Source: a virus. From it: a DNA stretch of 21,670 nt. Where the stretch lies: positions 1-21,670 of IMG/VR virus record IMGVR_UViG_3300025132_000363; one strand, written 5' to 3'. Position 1 is the stretch's first letter; each line of letters begins with the position of its first letter. The notes beneath the pieces were generated by a model, which saw only the letters and a program-made list of their open reading frames with translations, was not told the origin of the DNA and made no database searches. Made by a program: the position numbers and the translations under genes. Positions 6,578 through 14,266 of the stretch are shown one piece after another.

Positions 6578-6698
6578 GTTAATTAAATTAGCGACCAAAG
6601 CAGAGCAATGTGTTTCCCGACAAGAAGCACAAAAAATCATTAAAAAGGCTGATAAAGCCTATAAAAAACTCTCCGATACTCATGAACGAACTAGCTGA
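6537..6698 (+). CDS. Small basic coiled-coil protein
   Basis: Starting at the ATG at 6537 (MPQLQPKIEKQQRKLIKLAT) gives 53 residues. An in-frame ATG seven codons earlier (6516) would overlap more of the preceding gene and adds nothing family-like. The protein is lysine-rich and entirely helical, with heptad spacing of Leu/Ile/Ala, a single Cys and the helix EAQKIIKKADKAYKKL. It overlaps its neighbours at both ends, as is common in compact phage operons. Function unknown; a nucleic-acid-binding or packaging role would suit the charge but is not shown. Confidence 0.62.
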   Translation: MPQLQPKIEKQQRKLIKLATKAEQCVSRQEAQKIIKKADKAYKKLSDTHERTS

Positions 6699-6858
6699 CC
6701 CGTCAACGATTCAATTAGCTTTTTTATTTCCTTTCATACCTCTTATAGCTGTCGCTATTGTGACATATGCCTTAGGCTATGACCTAAGGAATGATAATGA
6801 AGACGATGATGACGACGACGATAGAGGTACATTAGTACCTGCCTATTACCCAACTTAA
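6682..6858 (+). CDS. Single-span small membrane protein with acidic tail
   Basis: Starting at the ATG at 6682 gives 58 residues: MNELADPSTIQ, then one transmembrane segment of about 25 residues rich in Phe, Ile, Val and Ala (IQLAFLFPFIPLIAVAIVTY), then YDLRNDNE, a run of Asp, and RGTLVPAYYPT. The frame is open from 6610, but the extra 24 residues are Lys-rich and only read through the preceding gene. The protein overlaps the preceding gene by 17 bases. It could be a holin-class or envelope-associated peptide; the Asp-run tail is distinctive. Confidence 0.7.
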   Translation: MNELADPSTIQLAFLFPFIPLIAVAIVTYALGYDLRNDNEDDDDDDDRGTLVPAYYPT

Positions 6859-7342: not shown

Positions 7343-7551
7343 CTTGCGATAATCCTTCACATGTAGACGCCTCTCAGGAGACCCGTCTGACAGTACAAGC
7401 TCTTAAAATCGAGAGATTGGAAGAGAAGCAAGACGAGTTACGTGAACGTCTCAAAGTCGTAGAGAAGTGGGTGATAGGGGCTGCAGCAGTATTAGCAGCT
7501 GGGGTTACCCTCATAGGATTTGCCACTAATATATCGAAAGCATATTTATGA
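7339..7551 (+). CDS. XhlA-like coiled coil plus transmembrane protein
   Basis: This 70-residue protein has an N-terminal coiled coil (about residues 14-43, with LKIERLEEKQDELRERLKVV), followed by one transmembrane segment (about residues 45-64, VIGAAAVLAAGVTLIGFAT). That layout is the same as haemolysin XhlA-type phage proteins, which act with holins in lysis. The similarity is architectural and I cannot confirm homology. It overlaps the preceding and following genes by four bases each (ATGA), so all three are probably made together. Confidence 0.72.
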   Translation: MTCDNPSHVDASQETRLTVQALKIERLEEKQDELRERLKVVEKWVIGAAAVLAAGVTLIGFATNISKAYL

Positions 7552-7736
7552 TCGAAAAAACAACAGACCCACAATTAATCCTCTTAATTGGTAGCTTAGT
7601 AACCATTCTTTTGGGTGCTATGAGTTACGGAATTTATTTAACTCTTGGAAATGGATCTAAAAATTTAAGAGATCCCATTGATGAACACGCCAAAATGCAC
7701 GAGTTGGGAATAGCTCACGGACATCGAAAAAAATAA
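7548..7736 (+). CDS. PsbN-like small membrane protein
   Basis: This 62-residue protein has one transmembrane segment (about residues 8-33) ending in MSYGIYLTLGNGSKNLRDPI followed by DEH. Cyanobacterial PsbN has the same order: a single span, then G-Y-x-x-Y-x-x-F-G-x-(P)S-x-x-LRDPFEEHED. Aligned residues include the GY/YGIY region, the 'GS-K-x-LRDP' block and the acidic DEH after it. PsbN is known as an assembly and repair factor for the photosystem II reaction centre, not a permanent subunit. The phage version has a different N terminus and an extra tail of about 15 residues rich in His and Lys. It is the last gene of the coupled membrane set. Homology is likely but the protein is short, so a profile search is needed. 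Confidence 0.7.
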   Translation: MIEKTTDPQLILLIGSLVTILLGAMSYGIYLTLGNGSKNLRDPIDEHAKMHELGIAHGHRKK

Positions 7737-8822: not shown

Positions 8823-9641
8823 ATGCTATTCCCTTTCTGTCCTATCGTCAAGGCAAGTGACGTAGGAGGAATATCTGCTACCTCTAATCCGGTCGCTAAT
8901 TCTTCCGGTCAAGCGAATGTTAATGCGTATCAAGTGTTGACAGGAAATTTTATGCAGTCAGGTTTTACTAATGGTGTCGTTTGCCAATCAGAGACATTAA
9001 CAATATCGCCTTATATAGGACGTTCTGCAAATATTAAAGAGCCTTTTTTCGAAACTTACGAAGATCCGGTATACGATGTCAGAGATATTGATGGCGATGG
9101 TGCTCCAGACAATCCTGGAGATATCCTTTGGTATAAGACAGTTCAAACTCTGCAGAAAGACAACTACTCTTTGAATATGGGGGTTACTGCTCAGTGGAGT
9201 AGACCCTTAGACAAGCAGATGATGTCTCTTTGCAAAGACGCTGCTGCTACTGAAATAGCCCTAAGAAAGGCAACATTAAATTTACGGGTTTTAGACTATG
9301 AAATTTCTCGACTTAAGCATTGCGGAAATCTAGCTAAGGAGGGCATTGTATGGGATCCGACCAGCAAATATAAAGTTATATGTGAGGACGTTTTATTAAC
9401 TTCGCCTCCTGGTGTCTTATTAAATCACAGTCATTCACTTGATCCTATTACTTTCGATTCTTCCTCTGCTCAAGCATCCTCTCTCGAACAGACAGAATCT
9501 TCTCAGGTTTCCTCAGAATCTTCTTTAGAACAGTCTTCGTCACTTTCTTCGCAAGAGGTTTCACAACCTTCATTAAATACTGTTGGAGAGGTTGGCCCAC
9601 TAGGGCCACCCCTAGAGTTGCGCCTACAGCTATCGAAGTAG
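8823..9641 (+). CDS. Secreted/virion-associated protein with Ser-rich tail, cyanophage type
   Basis: With the ATG at 8823 the product is 272 residues and opens with a short hydrophobic leader (MLFPFCPIVKA before SDVGGISATSNPVANSSGQ). The frame is open upstream to an ATG at 8628, but that part overlaps the preceding gene and reads as charged non-signal sequence. The core has cysteines in VVCQSE, LCKDA, HCGN and ICED, probable disulfides in an exported protein, and a helical region with LRVLDYEISRLKHCGNLAK. I recall proteins with this 'VGGISATSNPVANSSG' start in T4-like cyanophages. The last 64 residues are Ser/Gln-rich and are encoded opposite the convergent minus-strand gene (9448-9641). Confidence 0.75.
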   Translation: MLFPFCPIVKASDVGGISATSNPVANSSGQANVNAYQVLTGNFMQSGFTNGVVCQSETLTISPYIGRSANIKEPFFETYEDPVYDVRDIDGDGAPDNPGDILWYKTVQTLQKDNYSLNMGVTAQWSRPLDKQMMSLCKDAAATEIALRKATLNLRVLDYEISRLKHCGNLAKEGIVWDPTSKYKVICEDVLLTSPPGVLLNHSHSLDPITFDSSSAQASSLEQTESSQVSSESSLEQSSSLSSQEVSQPSLNTVGEVGPLGPPLELRLQLSK

Positions 9642-10260
9642 TGTTAAGGATCGTCTGAGGAGGAGGTGTGTAGTTATTTATAACGTTGAGCAAAGCAATA
9701 TCTTCGTACAGGGTGATACATTCTCCTTCAGAATTCTTTTTATAGCCTTTTACAATCTTCGTACCATATTTACCATACGCTCCCGGTGGGGGGCTTCCTG
9801 GTCTGGGACAGGGAAGATTAACGTCAACAGGGTTAATGGCGTTAACATCGAGATCAGGAATATTAGAGACCTGACCTGCTCCCTCTGTATTGGACTCATC
9901 CGTTTCATCTTGGGTCTCCTCAGATTTATTATTTCCTAAACCACTAACTGCTCCCAAATTAGGAGTAGTATCCATCGGAATAACTACTAATTCTTTACTT
10001 GGATCAAACTCAGGAGGATTGAAGTAGGGCATACCTGGCCCTGTACACAGCGTGAGCGTTCCCTGAGGATCGTCTTCTATTAATTTGTTATTACCTTGTG
10101 TCTCTCTGGCTTCAACGCAACCAGGCATCTCTACGGTTGGGAAGCCTATCTGAAGAGTGACAGGCGGGGCTTGAGGAATGCTTAAAGGTAAATCAATTGC
10201 CCATGTCGGAATCTGTGGGACGTATACATCCCTGACTCCTATCCGAGGGATGGAACCCAC
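9448..10260 (-). CDS. Virion-structural-type protein of T4-like cyanophages
   Basis: This 270-residue protein starts MGSIPRIGVRDVYVPQIPTW, followed by a Pro-rich beta stretch (VTLQIGFPTVEMPGCVEARE) that I recall in cyanophage proteins listed as virion structural. The middle is acidic and probably flexible (ETQDETDESNTEGAGQ), then VNLPCPRPGSPPPGAYGKYG, and after NTTSIAVGATLGVALVGQPL comes a helical, strongly basic C terminus (KVVKPLAKKVTKTVLKKILR ... EQRKNRK). The basic tail may bind nucleic acid or pack against another virion protein. The last 64 residues overlap the plus-strand gene ending at 9641 in antiparallel. A small membrane protein gene lies five bases upstream on the same strand. Confidence 0.83.
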   Translation of the reverse strand: MGSIPRIGVRDVYVPQIPTWAIDLPLSIPQAPPVTLQIGFPTVEMPGCVEARETQGNNKLIEDDPQGTLTLCTGPGMPYFNPPEFDPSKELVVIPMDTTPNLGAVSGLGNNKSEETQDETDESNTEGAGQVSNIPDLDVNAINPVDVNLPCPRPGSPPPGAYGKYGTKIVKGYKKNSEGECITLYEDIALLNVINNYTPPPQTILNTTSIAVGATLGVALVGQPLQQYLMKVVKPLAKKVTKTVLKKILRKPEKILSVRERMLEQRKNRK

Positions 10261-10632: not shown

Positions 10633-11148
10633 TTGACGCCAGAACACTGGGGCTCTTACGTTTTCGGTCTTGTAGACCTATCACCTCGAGCCGCACGGAA
10701 ACGTTTCCGTCAGTCGATCAAAGACGAATGGGGATGTTGTGCTTACTGCGGTGAATATCATGTTCACCTCACAATCGATCACGTGAAGCCAAGAACGCAA
10801 GGCGGCAGTAGTATGCGATCAAACCTTGTACCTGCATGTGTTAGATGTAATTCGAACAAAGGATCATCTAATTGGCGTGAATGGTACAAGAGCCAAGATT
10901 TCTTTTGCGCTAAAAAAGCGACCAGAATTGAAATCTGGATCAGACCTCAAATACCTGAGGAATGGGATTTATGGAGCAAAATCGGAGGAACTTTAAATGA
11001 CCAAAAGTCGAGGGTTGACAGCAGAACAACAATTTATGCTTCATCGAATTGCTTTAGAGATTCAGAGTCTAAGTCGAGACGAGTTGCATCAGGCATTACT
11101 CGATTGCTGGGAGGCTCGATTTCGGCAGAAGCAGTCCTTCATTGCTAG
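10633..11148 (+). CDS. HNH endonuclease, cyanophage type, TTG start
   Basis: This 171-residue protein begins at TTG 10633; an in-frame stop at 10621-10623 excludes an upstream start. Residues 6-33 (WGSYVFGLVDLSPRAARKRF) resemble the N terminus of HNH proteins in T4-like cyanophages. The nuclease core is complete: CAYC (C36, C39), LTIDHVKPRTQGG (H50), the Asn at 64, and CVRCNSNKG (C69, C72, N73). Two CxxC pairs bind structural zinc and H50 is the general base in the family. It may be a free-standing homing-type or genome-processing nuclease. From residue 122 on, the frame runs through the start of the next gene (152-nt overlap) and no longer looks family-like, so the natural end may have been lost. 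Confidence 0.87.
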   Translation: MTPEHWGSYVFGLVDLSPRAARKRFRQSIKDEWGCCAYCGEYHVHLTIDHVKPRTQGGSSMRSNLVPACVRCNSNKGSSNWREWYKSQDFFCAKKATRIEIWIRPQIPEEWDLWSKIGGTLNDQKSRVDSRTTIYASSNCFRDSESKSRRVASGITRLLGGSISAEAVLHC

Positions 11149-11344
11149 TGCTAAAGAAGCAGGCTTTTCATTCCAATTCAACGAGGGAATTGCGGTTATG
11201 CCTGCAACTGCCGTAGAAGAATTCGAAGACTTTCATGGACATGCTCCTACATGGGAAGATGCAGAGGATTATTTAGAGCAGATACAGGAAAATGTACACA
11301 TGGAATTAGACATGGATGCAATTGTCCTTGAACCTGAGGAATAA
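10997..11344 (+). CDS. NblA-like protein with C-terminal extension
   Basis: This 115-residue protein has residues 7-50 (LTAEQQFMLHRIALEIQSLS, then RDELHQALLDCWEARFRQKQ) matching the phycobilisome-degradation adaptor NblA: L-(S/T)-x-EQxF, a helix, L/M-(S/T)-R-(D/E), a second helix with the Leu/Ala periodicity. NblA in cyanobacteria bridges phycobilisomes to Clp protease during starvation, and phage NblA can promote phycobiliprotein breakdown. Here a further 60 residues follow, acidic and helical (TWEDAEDYLEQIQENVHMEL), which classical NblA (about 60 residues) lacks. The start at 10997 is inside the HNH frame. If true, it would give the phage a way to dismantle light-harvesting antennae. The match is by eye and short. 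Confidence 0.68.
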   Translation: MTKSRGLTAEQQFMLHRIALEIQSLSRDELHQALLDCWEARFRQKQSFIASAKEAGFSFQFNEGIAVMPATAVEEFEDFHGHAPTWEDAEDYLEQIQENVHMELDMDAIVLEPEE

Positions 11345-11783: not shown

Positions 11784-12440
11784 ATGGATGGATATGAAAC
11801 TCATTGGTTAAAACAGGAAGACGCTGACAAAATCGAAGCGTTTGTTTTTAATGAAGAAATCTATTGGACATTCACTCCAGACGTAACCTTTCCTGCTGCT
11901 GTTAAAAAAGATCCAATAAGTACAAGGATATCAGGATTCAATGCTTCTATTATTAGAGATGGTCTGCCATCTAAAGTTGTCAATAATTTAGCTAGACTTT
12001 TAGATCATATGAATTTCAATGCAATTACAAAGCATTTAGATCAATATAGAGACCAGAGTTTTAATATAAGAAGATTACAATTTTGGATGTATCCCAATAG
12101 ACAAGGAGCAGGCAAAATTCCTCATCGTCCTCATATAGATTTCGGGGAATACAACAAAACAGGATTATATTTTGTTAATGATTGCGAGGCTGATACTGTT
12201 TTCTTCAAGATCAAAGATCAATACAAAGAAGAGTTCAAAAAAGAAATTGAAGATGGATATCAGTTGTATTTACTATTCCAGACTAATAAGCTAACGATGA
12301 ATCATTTAGAGGAAATTCATCGCGAGAAGTCTGAGAAAGGTAAATTAGTATTATTTGATGGTTATACAATCCACGCAAGCTCATCTGCAGAGGATGAGAT
12401 TCGTGTCACTTTAAATTTTAATTTACAACCAGTCACATGA
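11784..12440 (+). CDS. 2OG-Fe(II) oxygenase-like protein
   Basis: This 218-residue protein has a complete set of 2-oxoglutarate oxygenase motifs: PHRPHIDFG (H117 and D119), GKLVLFDGYTIHASS (H197) and, ten residues later, EIRVTLNFNL (R207). The spacing and the strand before and after are those of the double-stranded beta helix. AAAGG lies about seven bases ahead of the ATG. It overlaps the following gene by ATGA and points into a convergent halogenase-like gene. It may act in the same chemistry as those neighbours, but the substrate is unknown. Confidence 0.82.
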   Translation: MDGYETHWLKQEDADKIEAFVFNEEIYWTFTPDVTFPAAVKKDPISTRISGFNASIIRDGLPSKVVNNLARLLDHMNFNAITKHLDQYRDQSFNIRRLQFWMYPNRQGAGKIPHRPHIDFGEYNKTGLYFVNDCEADTVFFKIKDQYKEEFKKEIEDGYQLYLLFQTNKLTMNHLEEIHREKSEKGKLVLFDGYTIHASSSAEDEIRVTLNFNLQPVT

Positions 12441-13111
12441 AATTACGTTTAAGAAAAAAAGCACCTCAAATATGGGGTAATATTATTCAGAAACATATTG
12501 AAGATGTTCCTAAAAATTTAGATATTATCAAAAAAGAACTTCGAGAAATTCAAACAGGGAACCCTTTCCTGAAATCTAGTCATAGTACTGTTTTATATGA
12601 TTTATATAGAGAGTTAGATTTTATATTAAGACCGTTAATTAGTTTTCAGAATATTCATCGTACAACAATGTTAGTCACTACAGATGATCAAGGGGAAGCA
12701 ATCTTAGATCCTGATACACAAGAACCTGTATTTACCCGACAGCCTAATCCTGATTTAGATAATCAAAAGAACAACAGTCGATATTGGATTAAGTATTGGT
12801 TAAATATATTTAATACAGAAACAAATTTACATAGTCATAAAGGTAGTTACGCTGGATCTTTATGGATCGAGCCAGGACAATCTGTTACTGTATTCCCTGA
12901 CGTACATGAAGAAATAGAGAATAAGACAGGATTACTGTTATTAAGCGATTCACAGAATGTTCATTACCTAAAGAAACATCAATATGAGAAAAATGAAATG
13001 GCCGACGAATCAATTAGTATCGGTTTCGAAGTATATAATATGGAATATTTTGAACGTGAAAATATAGATATTTCTGATTACAAAGATTTTGATTTAATGC
13101 CTTTGATATAA
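12437..13111 (+). CDS. Putative double-stranded beta-helix (cupin/2OG-like) protein
   Basis: This 224-residue protein is translationally coupled to the oxygenase before it. The central block YWLNIFNTETNLHSHKGSYA with SLWIEPG resembles the first metal strand of 2OG or cupin folds (H132, H134). Later LLLLSDSQNVHYLKK gives a candidate distal histidine (H176), followed by ESISIGFEVY in the place where the 2-oxoglutarate arginine normally sits; no Arg is there. Either it uses another co-substrate contact or it is not a dioxygenase. A second possibility is a cupin-type binding protein. Its stop lies 18 bases inside the end of the convergent halogenase-like gene. Confidence 0.68.
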   Translation: MKLRLRKKAPQIWGNIIQKHIEDVPKNLDIIKKELREIQTGNPFLKSSHSTVLYDLYRELDFILRPLISFQNIHRTTMLVTTDDQGEAILDPDTQEPVFTRQPNPDLDNQKNNSRYWIKYWLNIFNTETNLHSHKGSYAGSLWIEPGQSVTVFPDVHEEIENKTGLLLLSDSQNVHYLKKHQYEKNEMADESISIGFEVYNMEYFERENIDISDYKDFDLMPLI

Positions 13112-14266
13112 TTTTTCATTCATTCCTTTCAACCAATACTTAAAGCTAGATATAGACCAAGGACCATACTTATAAGTACTAGGATAAGCAGCCTCTGCAA
13201 TCTTGATAGTTTCTAAAGTTTGATTCTTTGCGAAGTGCAACGCATCTGTAAACTCTGGATCAGCCAAAGTTAATCCTTCTGCGTATTTCCAAAACGGAGT
13301 GTCGTATTGGGACCCAAATTTATAGTGCCATAAAATAAAATTCTGTACCTGTTGAATATGTCTTTTAATATCAATCACTGCATGGTGAGGAGCCCATCCT
13401 TTATTACCAACAAACTGATACGATAGTTTTGCCCAAGTTTGGTATGTAGAGATAGACGTCGACTCCATAGGTTCCAAGAAAAACAATCTATTACCATTCA
13501 AAATAATACGGTTATCTATAACAGGATTCTTGGCTACGTAACTATTAAACGTCAAATTGTCAGTTACTGTGACGTCAAAATTTTTGGTAAAATTCTTTTC
13601 AGCATCTTCCCGCGAGGTTATATCTTTGTTATATAAATAGCCAACAGATCTGCTGTACGAAGGAGAAGTTTTATCGGTAGGAATAACAAAAGTCCATCCA
13701 TCTTCTGTTGCGATATGTTTTGTAAAAGGATCTGTATTAGGTTCGTTTGGTTTACCTAATACAGCAGCATTTATAGGATTAATGAGTGGATCATAATCTT
13801 CAAAACTTGAAGGTTTCCCTCTGCAATCAACAATATAATCTGAATCGATGTTTGATATATCGTTTACTTTTTGTCTTTTAACTTTGAAAGAATTAGAGTT
13901 CAAGACAAATGATTGCATCTCCCATGGGCAGAAATGCACAGCAATATGATTACCAGGGAAAGGATGAAAAACATCCTTATTAGTTTTACCCCAGTTTTGG
14001 TACAAGATACCTAGCTTTGGGGTGGCATTAATTTTATTGGAATAATAATTAAATTCTTGTTCTAAAGCACTCCAAAGTAACTGAGGTTGAGGCGGAAATG
14101 TAGCTTGACCTACTTTTTCTGATTCGCTATCTGGGTCGTAAATTAATTCAATTTCATCGATACCTCTACCTAGGGTCACCCATTTATCAATCTTGGCTAG
14201 CCACGAGTACTCGAGGGCAGTAAAACATCCTGCGTTGCCTGCACCTACAATTGTAACTTTAGTCAT
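13094..14266 (-). CDS. Tryptophan-halogenase-like flavoprotein
   Basis: This 390-residue protein starts with an FAD Rossmann motif, VTIVGAGNAG (residues 4-13), and carries other marks of flavin-dependent halogenases: VGQATFPPQP (52-61) in the place of 'VGE-x-T-x-P', PKLGILYQNWG with K84 as candidate for the active-site lysine that channels HOCl, GWTFVIP (190-196) in place of the GW-x-W-x-IP signature, and LEPMESTSIS (264-273) matching 'LEPLESTxI'. Bacterial tryptophan halogenases are about 520 residues, so this is short; cyanophage relatives of this type are known. GW-x-W-x-IP has its second Trp replaced by Phe. A role in halogenating Trp or another aromatic compound is possible but unproven, and some family members are oxidases. 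It is convergent with the oxygenase pair 11784-13111. Confidence 0.83.
   Translation of the reverse strand: MTKVTIVGAGNAGCFTALEYSWLAKIDKWVTLGRGIDEIELIYDPDSESEKVGQATFPPQPQLLWSALEQEFNYYSNKINATPKLGILYQNWGKTNKDVFHPFPGNHIAVHFCPWEMQSFVLNSNSFKVKRQKVNDISNIDSDYIVDCRGKPSSFEDYDPLINPINAAVLGKPNEPNTDPFTKHIATEDGWTFVIPTDKTSPSYSRSVGYLYNKDITSREDAEKNFTKNFDVTVTDNLTFNSYVAKNPVIDNRIILNGNRLFFLEPMESTSISTYQTWAKLSYQFVGNKGWAPHHAVIDIKRHIQQVQNFILWHYKFGSQYDTPFWKYAEGLTLADPEFTDALHFAKNQTLETIKIAEAAYPSTYKYGPWSISSFKYWLKGMNEKLYQRH

Follow-up and report, generated by a model that had tools for sequence, protein, structure and literature searches.

Few adaptors of the cyanobacterial Clp protease are known, and NblA is one of them (PMC7966870, excerpt). 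Its binding site for ClpC lies near the N terminus, and that for phycobiliproteins near the C terminus (PMC4103541, excerpt). Phage-encoded NblA is known from freshwater and marine phages, and expression of some of these proteins led to the loss of phycobilins; the NblA of cyanomyoviruses S-SCSM1 and S-TIM5 was so called on the basis of HHpred (PMC9602691, excerpt). NblA was also reported from uncultured marine cyanophages (Nadel et al., 2019; Flores-Uribe et al., 2019), with which the family described here is compared by description only. A survey of 2017 lists nblA for other cyanophage groups and none for the S-EIV1 group (PMC5332604, excerpt with Table 2), and the excerpts of PMC5332604, PMC9382816, and PMC9239245 do not describe NblA in S-EIV1-type phages.

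We analyzed a stretch of viral DNA of 21,670 nucleotides (IMG/VR record IMGVR_UViG_3300025132_000363, positions 1 to 21,670), hereafter the window. It carries a gene for an NblA-like protein, for which we use the working name nblX; the gene and its relatives are designated family F1. Like NblA (PF04485) and the NblA proteins of phages Ma-LMM01 and PaV-LD, the protein has the helix-1 motif L-S/T-x-E-Q-x-F and a two-helix layout in the same register. Those proteins are 54–65 aa long and end after helix 2, whereas nblX encodes 115 aa, its helix 2 is weakly alike, position 51 is occupied by S/A/T, and an acidic linker with a terminal peptide follows. The PF04485 score of nblX was 20.0 bits vs. 52 bits for Ma-LMM01 NblA and 45.4 bits for PaV-LD NblA, which served as controls. 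The NblA of the S-SCSM1/S-TIM5 type also differs, having 54 aa and no tail. Since S-SCSM1 NblA had no PF04485 match at E 1, F1 is nearer to the Pfam NblA profile than this protein. F1 is a real and widespread family of divergent NblA-like proteins whose tail is conserved; phage NblA as such was already known.

The nblX gene and its surroundings

The features of the window considered here are the following.

7548..7736, + strand: PsbN-like gene (PF02468, 31.4 bits, cut-off 25)
10633..11148, + strand: HNH endonuclease ORF (PF01844, 44.9 bits), adjoining nblX upstream
10984..10989, + strand: GGAGGA, probable ribosome-binding site, directly 5' of nblX in the sequence
10997..11344, + strand: nblX, ORF with translation, 115-aa NblA-like protein, stop included
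11015..11158, + strand: NblA-like helix pair, residues 7–54 (helix 1, 9–22; helix 2, 27–54)
11159..11200, + strand: conserved AGFxFxxNEG stretch after helix 2, residues 55–68 (identity 0.57, 26 rows)
11201..11299, + strand: variable acidic linker, residues 69–101 (identity 0.32–0.35; predicted helices 70–80 and 86–99)
11300..11329, + strand: MELDMDAIVL, residues 102–111, the most conserved stretch (identity 0.83)

The ORF scan and translation gave an ATG start and 115 codons plus a stop for nblX, and the reverse strand of its frame is closed by many stops. A purine-rich stretch akin to GGAGGA precedes most of the listed starts of its relatives. These relatives were found on 34 IMG/VR contigs by a family-alignment search. 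Totals for F1 (34) and for the second family F2 (66) refer to contigs; ORF totals count some contigs more than once. Alignment A6 consisted of 26 rows chosen from the 34 F1 loci, locus L036, and the window protein.

F1 relatives were also observed on contigs assigned to two MAGs that bear the title Euryarchaeota. Four cyanophage contigs (L027, L028, L036, and L039) lie inside MAGs titled Euryarchaeota archaeon and were probably mis-binned. MAG G014 includes three NblA-like phage genes, which lie on three of its contigs.

The HNH ORF overlaps nblX by 152 bases in a different frame, and an HNH relative was located directly 5' of the F1 gene in 34/34 loci. The HNH frame ends before nblX in some relatives, such as L009. 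The PsbN-like gene, already reported in the preliminary description of the window, was recovered above its Pfam cut-off.

Several other genes of the window were recorded. A tryptophan-halogenase-like gene is encoded at 13094–14266 on the minus strand (101 bits), and similar genes occur in Synechococcus phages Sf-CH5 and Sf-CH8. A weak match to 2OG-Fe(II) oxygenase at 11784–12440 adjoins nblX; S-SCSM1 has several 2OG-Fe(II) oxygenase genes near its own nblA. The phrog_570 protein encoded at 9448–10260 on the minus strand (171.7 bits) has counterparts in 387 phage records, almost all of which are cyanophages. The small protein at 6610–6858 has one hydrophobic stretch followed by an Asp run and gave no family match worth naming.

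Protein architecture and likeness to NblA

The first half of nblX had been described as carrying the NblA pattern LTxEQQF...LSRDE, and LTAEQQF...LSRDE is present at residues 7–29. Within the helix-1 motif of F1, L7, E10, and Q11 were invariant, and position 8 was T or S (26 rows). The best Pfam match of nblX was PF04485 NblA (E 9.8e-4, residues 7–37), which was also its sole Pfam match below E 0.01. The NblA profile match expected from the preliminary description was found in this way, but its score (20.0 bits) is lower than the curated cut-off of 25. The best NCBIfam match was NblA as well (16.5 bits, cut-off 100). The NblA crystal chain 1ojh aligned without gaps to residues 6–44 of nblX, weakly (E 0.65). 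In 12/12 F1 IMG/VR records, PF04485 matched only the nblX homologue, at 14.3–21.4 bits, all below the cut-off. The strongest scorer, L036, reached 24.8 bits (25.1 with neighbours) in one scan and 23.8 bits in another.

A tblastn search of the phages with an Anabaena-type NblA gave no match at E 10, although PaV-LD and Ma-LMM01 were in the collection. As it missed both of these phages, the search was considered insensitive, and family profiles were used instead. The F1 profile represented the nblX family by 13 rows of alignment A3. The F2 profile was made from 28/66 S-EIV1-type loci and S-EIV1, and the F3 (NblA) profile from 8/26 PaV-LD-type loci, Ma-LMM01, and pieces of three PDB chains. The hhalign score of F1 vs. 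F3 was 39.6, whereas 200 column shuffles averaged 10.7 and peaked at 20.2, and the reversed profile gave 10.3; the claim of an NblA-like first half was upheld by this comparison. F2 vs. F3 scored 38.0 (maximum of 200 column shuffles, 18.9). Both likenesses are far outside chance since the scores were well above the shuffle maxima. The score of F1 vs. F2, 26.8, was within chance (maximum of 200 column shuffles, 27.3).

When the F3 profile was searched against 25,752 ORFs, F1 and F2 members came next after the NblA proteins (best scores 27.2 and 23.1 bits, respectively), and the top unrelated ORF had 16.9 bits. Four F1 members (L168, L169, L175, and L176) scored at the background level of 5.6–6.7 bits, which counts against NblA descent. 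The top scores outside the families belonged to a 30-aa frame at L173:823-912 and L174:823-912 (16.9 and 14.7 bits, respectively). In an ungapped register against five NblA proteins, helix 1 of nblX scored higher than 5000/5000 shuffles, and helix 2 higher than 4879/5000, a weak likeness; register 0 was the best among 15 offsets for both helices.

Mean pairwise identity over 26 rows was 0.59 for residues 7–26 and 0.66 for residues 27–54. The protein is about twice as long as NblA, as stated in the preliminary description (115 aa vs. 54 aa in PaV-LD NblA), and the added acidic second half is present and conserved in the relatives. The tail consensus in F1 is mostly M/F-ELDMDxIVL. AlphaFold2 with 26 sequences predicted helices at residues 9–22, 27–54, 70–80, and 86–99 (mean pLDDT 73.8, pTM 0.37), with low confidence for roughly the final 15 residues. 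The extra half had been called acidic and helical; its acidic character was clear (17 D/E and zero K/R in residues 58–115), while helices accounted for only part of it (70–80 and 86–99), the end being of low confidence. It had also been proposed as a new recruiting domain. Rather than a clear new domain, the added half appears to be a variable acidic linker, partly helical by prediction, that ends in a peptide under strong conservation.

Of the helical hairpin that forms the four-helix dimer of NblA, two helices of the right length were predicted; Foldseek, however, listed no NblA structure, and nothing was below E 0.001 in PDB (both models) or BFVD (model 2). No conclusion was drawn from a likeness of model 1 to ribosomal proteins (VIA), which covered residues 34–115 with Z ≤ 4.6, a range that the tool calls common.

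Substitution rates were estimated from ten close pairs. Over residues 7–54, dN was about 0.067 and dS about 0.59; over residues 102–115, dN was 0.018 and dS was 0.70. The dN/dS ratio was well below 1 for every segment of nblX. Purifying selection acts on all segments, and nblX evolves as a protein.

Kinship with S-EIV1 and clues to the host

Contig G001 (66 kb) is 85–96% identical to the window across most of the window. S-EIV1-like terminase and virion genes were assessed on this contig; the window itself is without these genes. Compared to S-EIV1, the terminase of G001 gave 50–51%, and other virion-region ORFs gave 49% and 69%. S-EIV1 and each of four F2 contigs have PolA (5/5), which is absent from the F1 contigs (0/10), and the F1 phages are therefore at most a sister branch of S-EIV1. 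The lineage of Flores-Uribe et al. reportedly has an integrase and a split DNA polymerase. The tyrosine integrase PF00589 was found in 0/15 records (S-EIV1 and F1/F2 contigs), leaving the assignment of F1 to that 2019 lineage unsupported.

In S-EIV1, the hypothetical protein AHV82245.1 is NblA-like (L049:19995-20315, corresponding to KJ410740.1 73902-74222). It has a PF04485 score of 16.3 bits, below the cut-off, and an Asp-rich tail. Its relatives, family F2, occupy 66 IMG/VR loci. Similar to nblX, the F2/S-EIV1 protein has an NblA-like head followed by an acidic tail, and the virion genes of these phages are kindred. Unlike F1 with its S/A/T, F2 has retained L/I at the equivalent of position 51 (28/28), and its tail is without ELDMDxIVL. 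The F2 gene is situated behind lysozyme (in S-EIV1, with about 4 kb between it and the HNH gene), whereas the F1 gene is situated behind HNH. An F2 query found F2 genes in 5/5 F2 records among 20, the sixth match being the F1 gene in G017 (E 0.003). In the opposite direction, P0001 recovered the F1 genes of 5/5 F1 records and gave a weak match to a single F2 gene in five F2 records (E 0.009). According to these reciprocal searches, F1 and F2 replace each other in the searched records.

PsbN was above the cut-off in 6/17 records, and psbA was present in 6/17 records. The psbA comparison was a ranking by identity. G001 psbA was most similar to psbA of single-particle marine viruses and of Prochlorococcus phages. 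Of its best 40 rows, 30 had a named host (25 Prochlorococcus and 5 Synechococcus), and when the list was sampled at regular intervals, most Synechococcus isolates were at 82–86%. For psbA of the F2 contig G023, the named hosts in the best 25 rows were Prochlorococcus in 15/15 cases; the 10-kb locus of this contig has 31.7% GC. Synechococcus phages S-TIM4 and S-SSM7 have psbA similar to that of G001, which counts against a Prochlorococcus host, as do the 60% GC of the L160 locus and the Synechococcus host of S-EIV1. In addition, psbA moves between phages, which reduces its value as host evidence. Viruses of plate AG-345 were rejected as host evidence because this plate represents an extracellular sort gate (PMC6122165, excerpt). 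Among T4-like cyanophages, a PsbN-like gene is universal in and exclusive to Prochlorococcus isolates (PMC3037559, excerpt). In Prochlorococcus, chlorophyll-binding proteins replace phycobilisomes, and nblA is lacking (PMC7439483, excerpt). Judged from gene content and similarity, the host clues appear to point partly to Prochlorococcus.

Possible function of nblX

Position 51 was S/A/T in 26/26 F1 members and W, W, I, L, and M in the five NblA proteins. We take this position to be the equivalent of Leu51 of Anabaena NblA, the phycobilisome-binding leucine. Position 53 was K/R in 20/26 F1 members, as in NblA. The helix-1 match, S/A/T at position 51, and the tail together suggest that the docking half was kept, the cargo half altered, and a tail added. 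We give about even chances to the reading that nblX descends from NblA and serves the host Clp protease as an adaptor whose cargo end has been rebuilt.

ClpC binding, the cargo, and the role of the tail are what we infer for such an adaptor. Helix 1 of nblX, with the region of the NblA docking motif retained, would bind ClpC, and the end of helix 2, the tail peptide, or both would grip a host protein. The cargo could be a phycobiliprotein where the host has them and another protein elsewhere. The flexible tail may also offer the protease a starting point for pulling. The adaptor reading is consistent with the position of the most conserved segment (residues 102–111, 0.83) behind the least conserved linker (0.32–0.35) and with the second family, S-EIV1 and 66 IMG/VR loci, in which an NblA-like head is likewise followed by an acidic tail. 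It is opposed by the PF04485 scores, which are under the cut-off for the protein of the window and for almost every relative, by the four F1 members at background against the NblA profile, by the weak likeness of helix 2, by the absence of an NblA structure among the Foldseek matches (pTM 0.37), and by the direct neighbour of nblX, which is an HNH nuclease (34/34 loci) and no photosynthesis gene.

Alternatively, nblX may be an ordinary phage NblA that delivers phycobilisomes to Clp, as in Ma-LMM01, PaV-LD, and the tested marine phage, with a tail that tunes stability or affinity; this is possible, and we lean against it. Such a role would suit the NblA-like head (PF04485, 20.0 bits; hhalign, 39.6), K/R at position 53 in 20/26 members, the Synechococcus host of S-EIV1, and the 60% GC of L160, unlike Prochlorococcus. 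It also agrees with the loss of phycobilins that the NblA of a marine cyanophage brought about in S. elongatus (PMC9602691, excerpt). It fits poorly with S/A/T at the hydrophobic cargo-end position in 26/26 members and with the host clues that partly indicate Prochlorococcus, an organism without phycobilisomes (PMC7439483, excerpt). Neither a bilin reductase gene nor a CpeT gene was found in 16 records (0/16 for each), which may be incomplete, and this, too, speaks against an ordinary NblA. The same three observations bear on the earlier suggestion that the phage dismantles antennae. The suggestion is unproven since part of the host clues lead to Prochlorococcus, which has no phycobilisomes.

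In a more specific form of the adaptor reading, phages of phycobilisome-free hosts (Prochlorococcus) would keep the ClpC helix, drop the phycobilisome grip, and feed another protein to ClpCP via the end of helix 2 and ELDMDxIVL. We regard this retargeting as tentative and rather doubtful.

It is still less probable, and in our view unlikely, that an NblA-type helix pair was co-opted for a phage job unrelated to Clp, as a partner of HNH or a small virion or packaging factor. The HNH relative immediately 5' in 34/34 loci, the 152 bases shared by the HNH and nblX frames in the window, and the weak similarity of L036 to a tail assembly chaperone of phages (14.3 bits, cut-off 27) would be explained by such a job. 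However, the S-EIV1-type NblA-like gene is located behind lysozyme, about 4 kb from HNH, so the pairing with HNH is not general, and the protein has best preserved the helix with which NblA docks on ClpC.

That nblX is unrelated to NblA, being a short helical protein of chance likeness or a Nif11-type peptide, is very improbable: the score under the Pfam cut-off, the four F1 members at background against the NblA profile, and a weak match to Nif11 (PF07862; 13.8 bits, E 0.075, residues 29–59, cut-off 23.8) are in its favor, but 0/200 shuffles and the reversed profile (10.3) did not approach 39.6, and no Nif11 match at E 1 was reported for L036 (two forms), L025, L041, and L012, so the Nif11 reading was rejected.

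With nblX as a putative NblA-derived Clp adaptor, two points concern the biology of these phages. The isolate S-EIV1 turns out to carry an NblA-like protein annotated merely as hypothetical. With family F1, one can test whether host proteolysis is redirected by phages, and toward which target.
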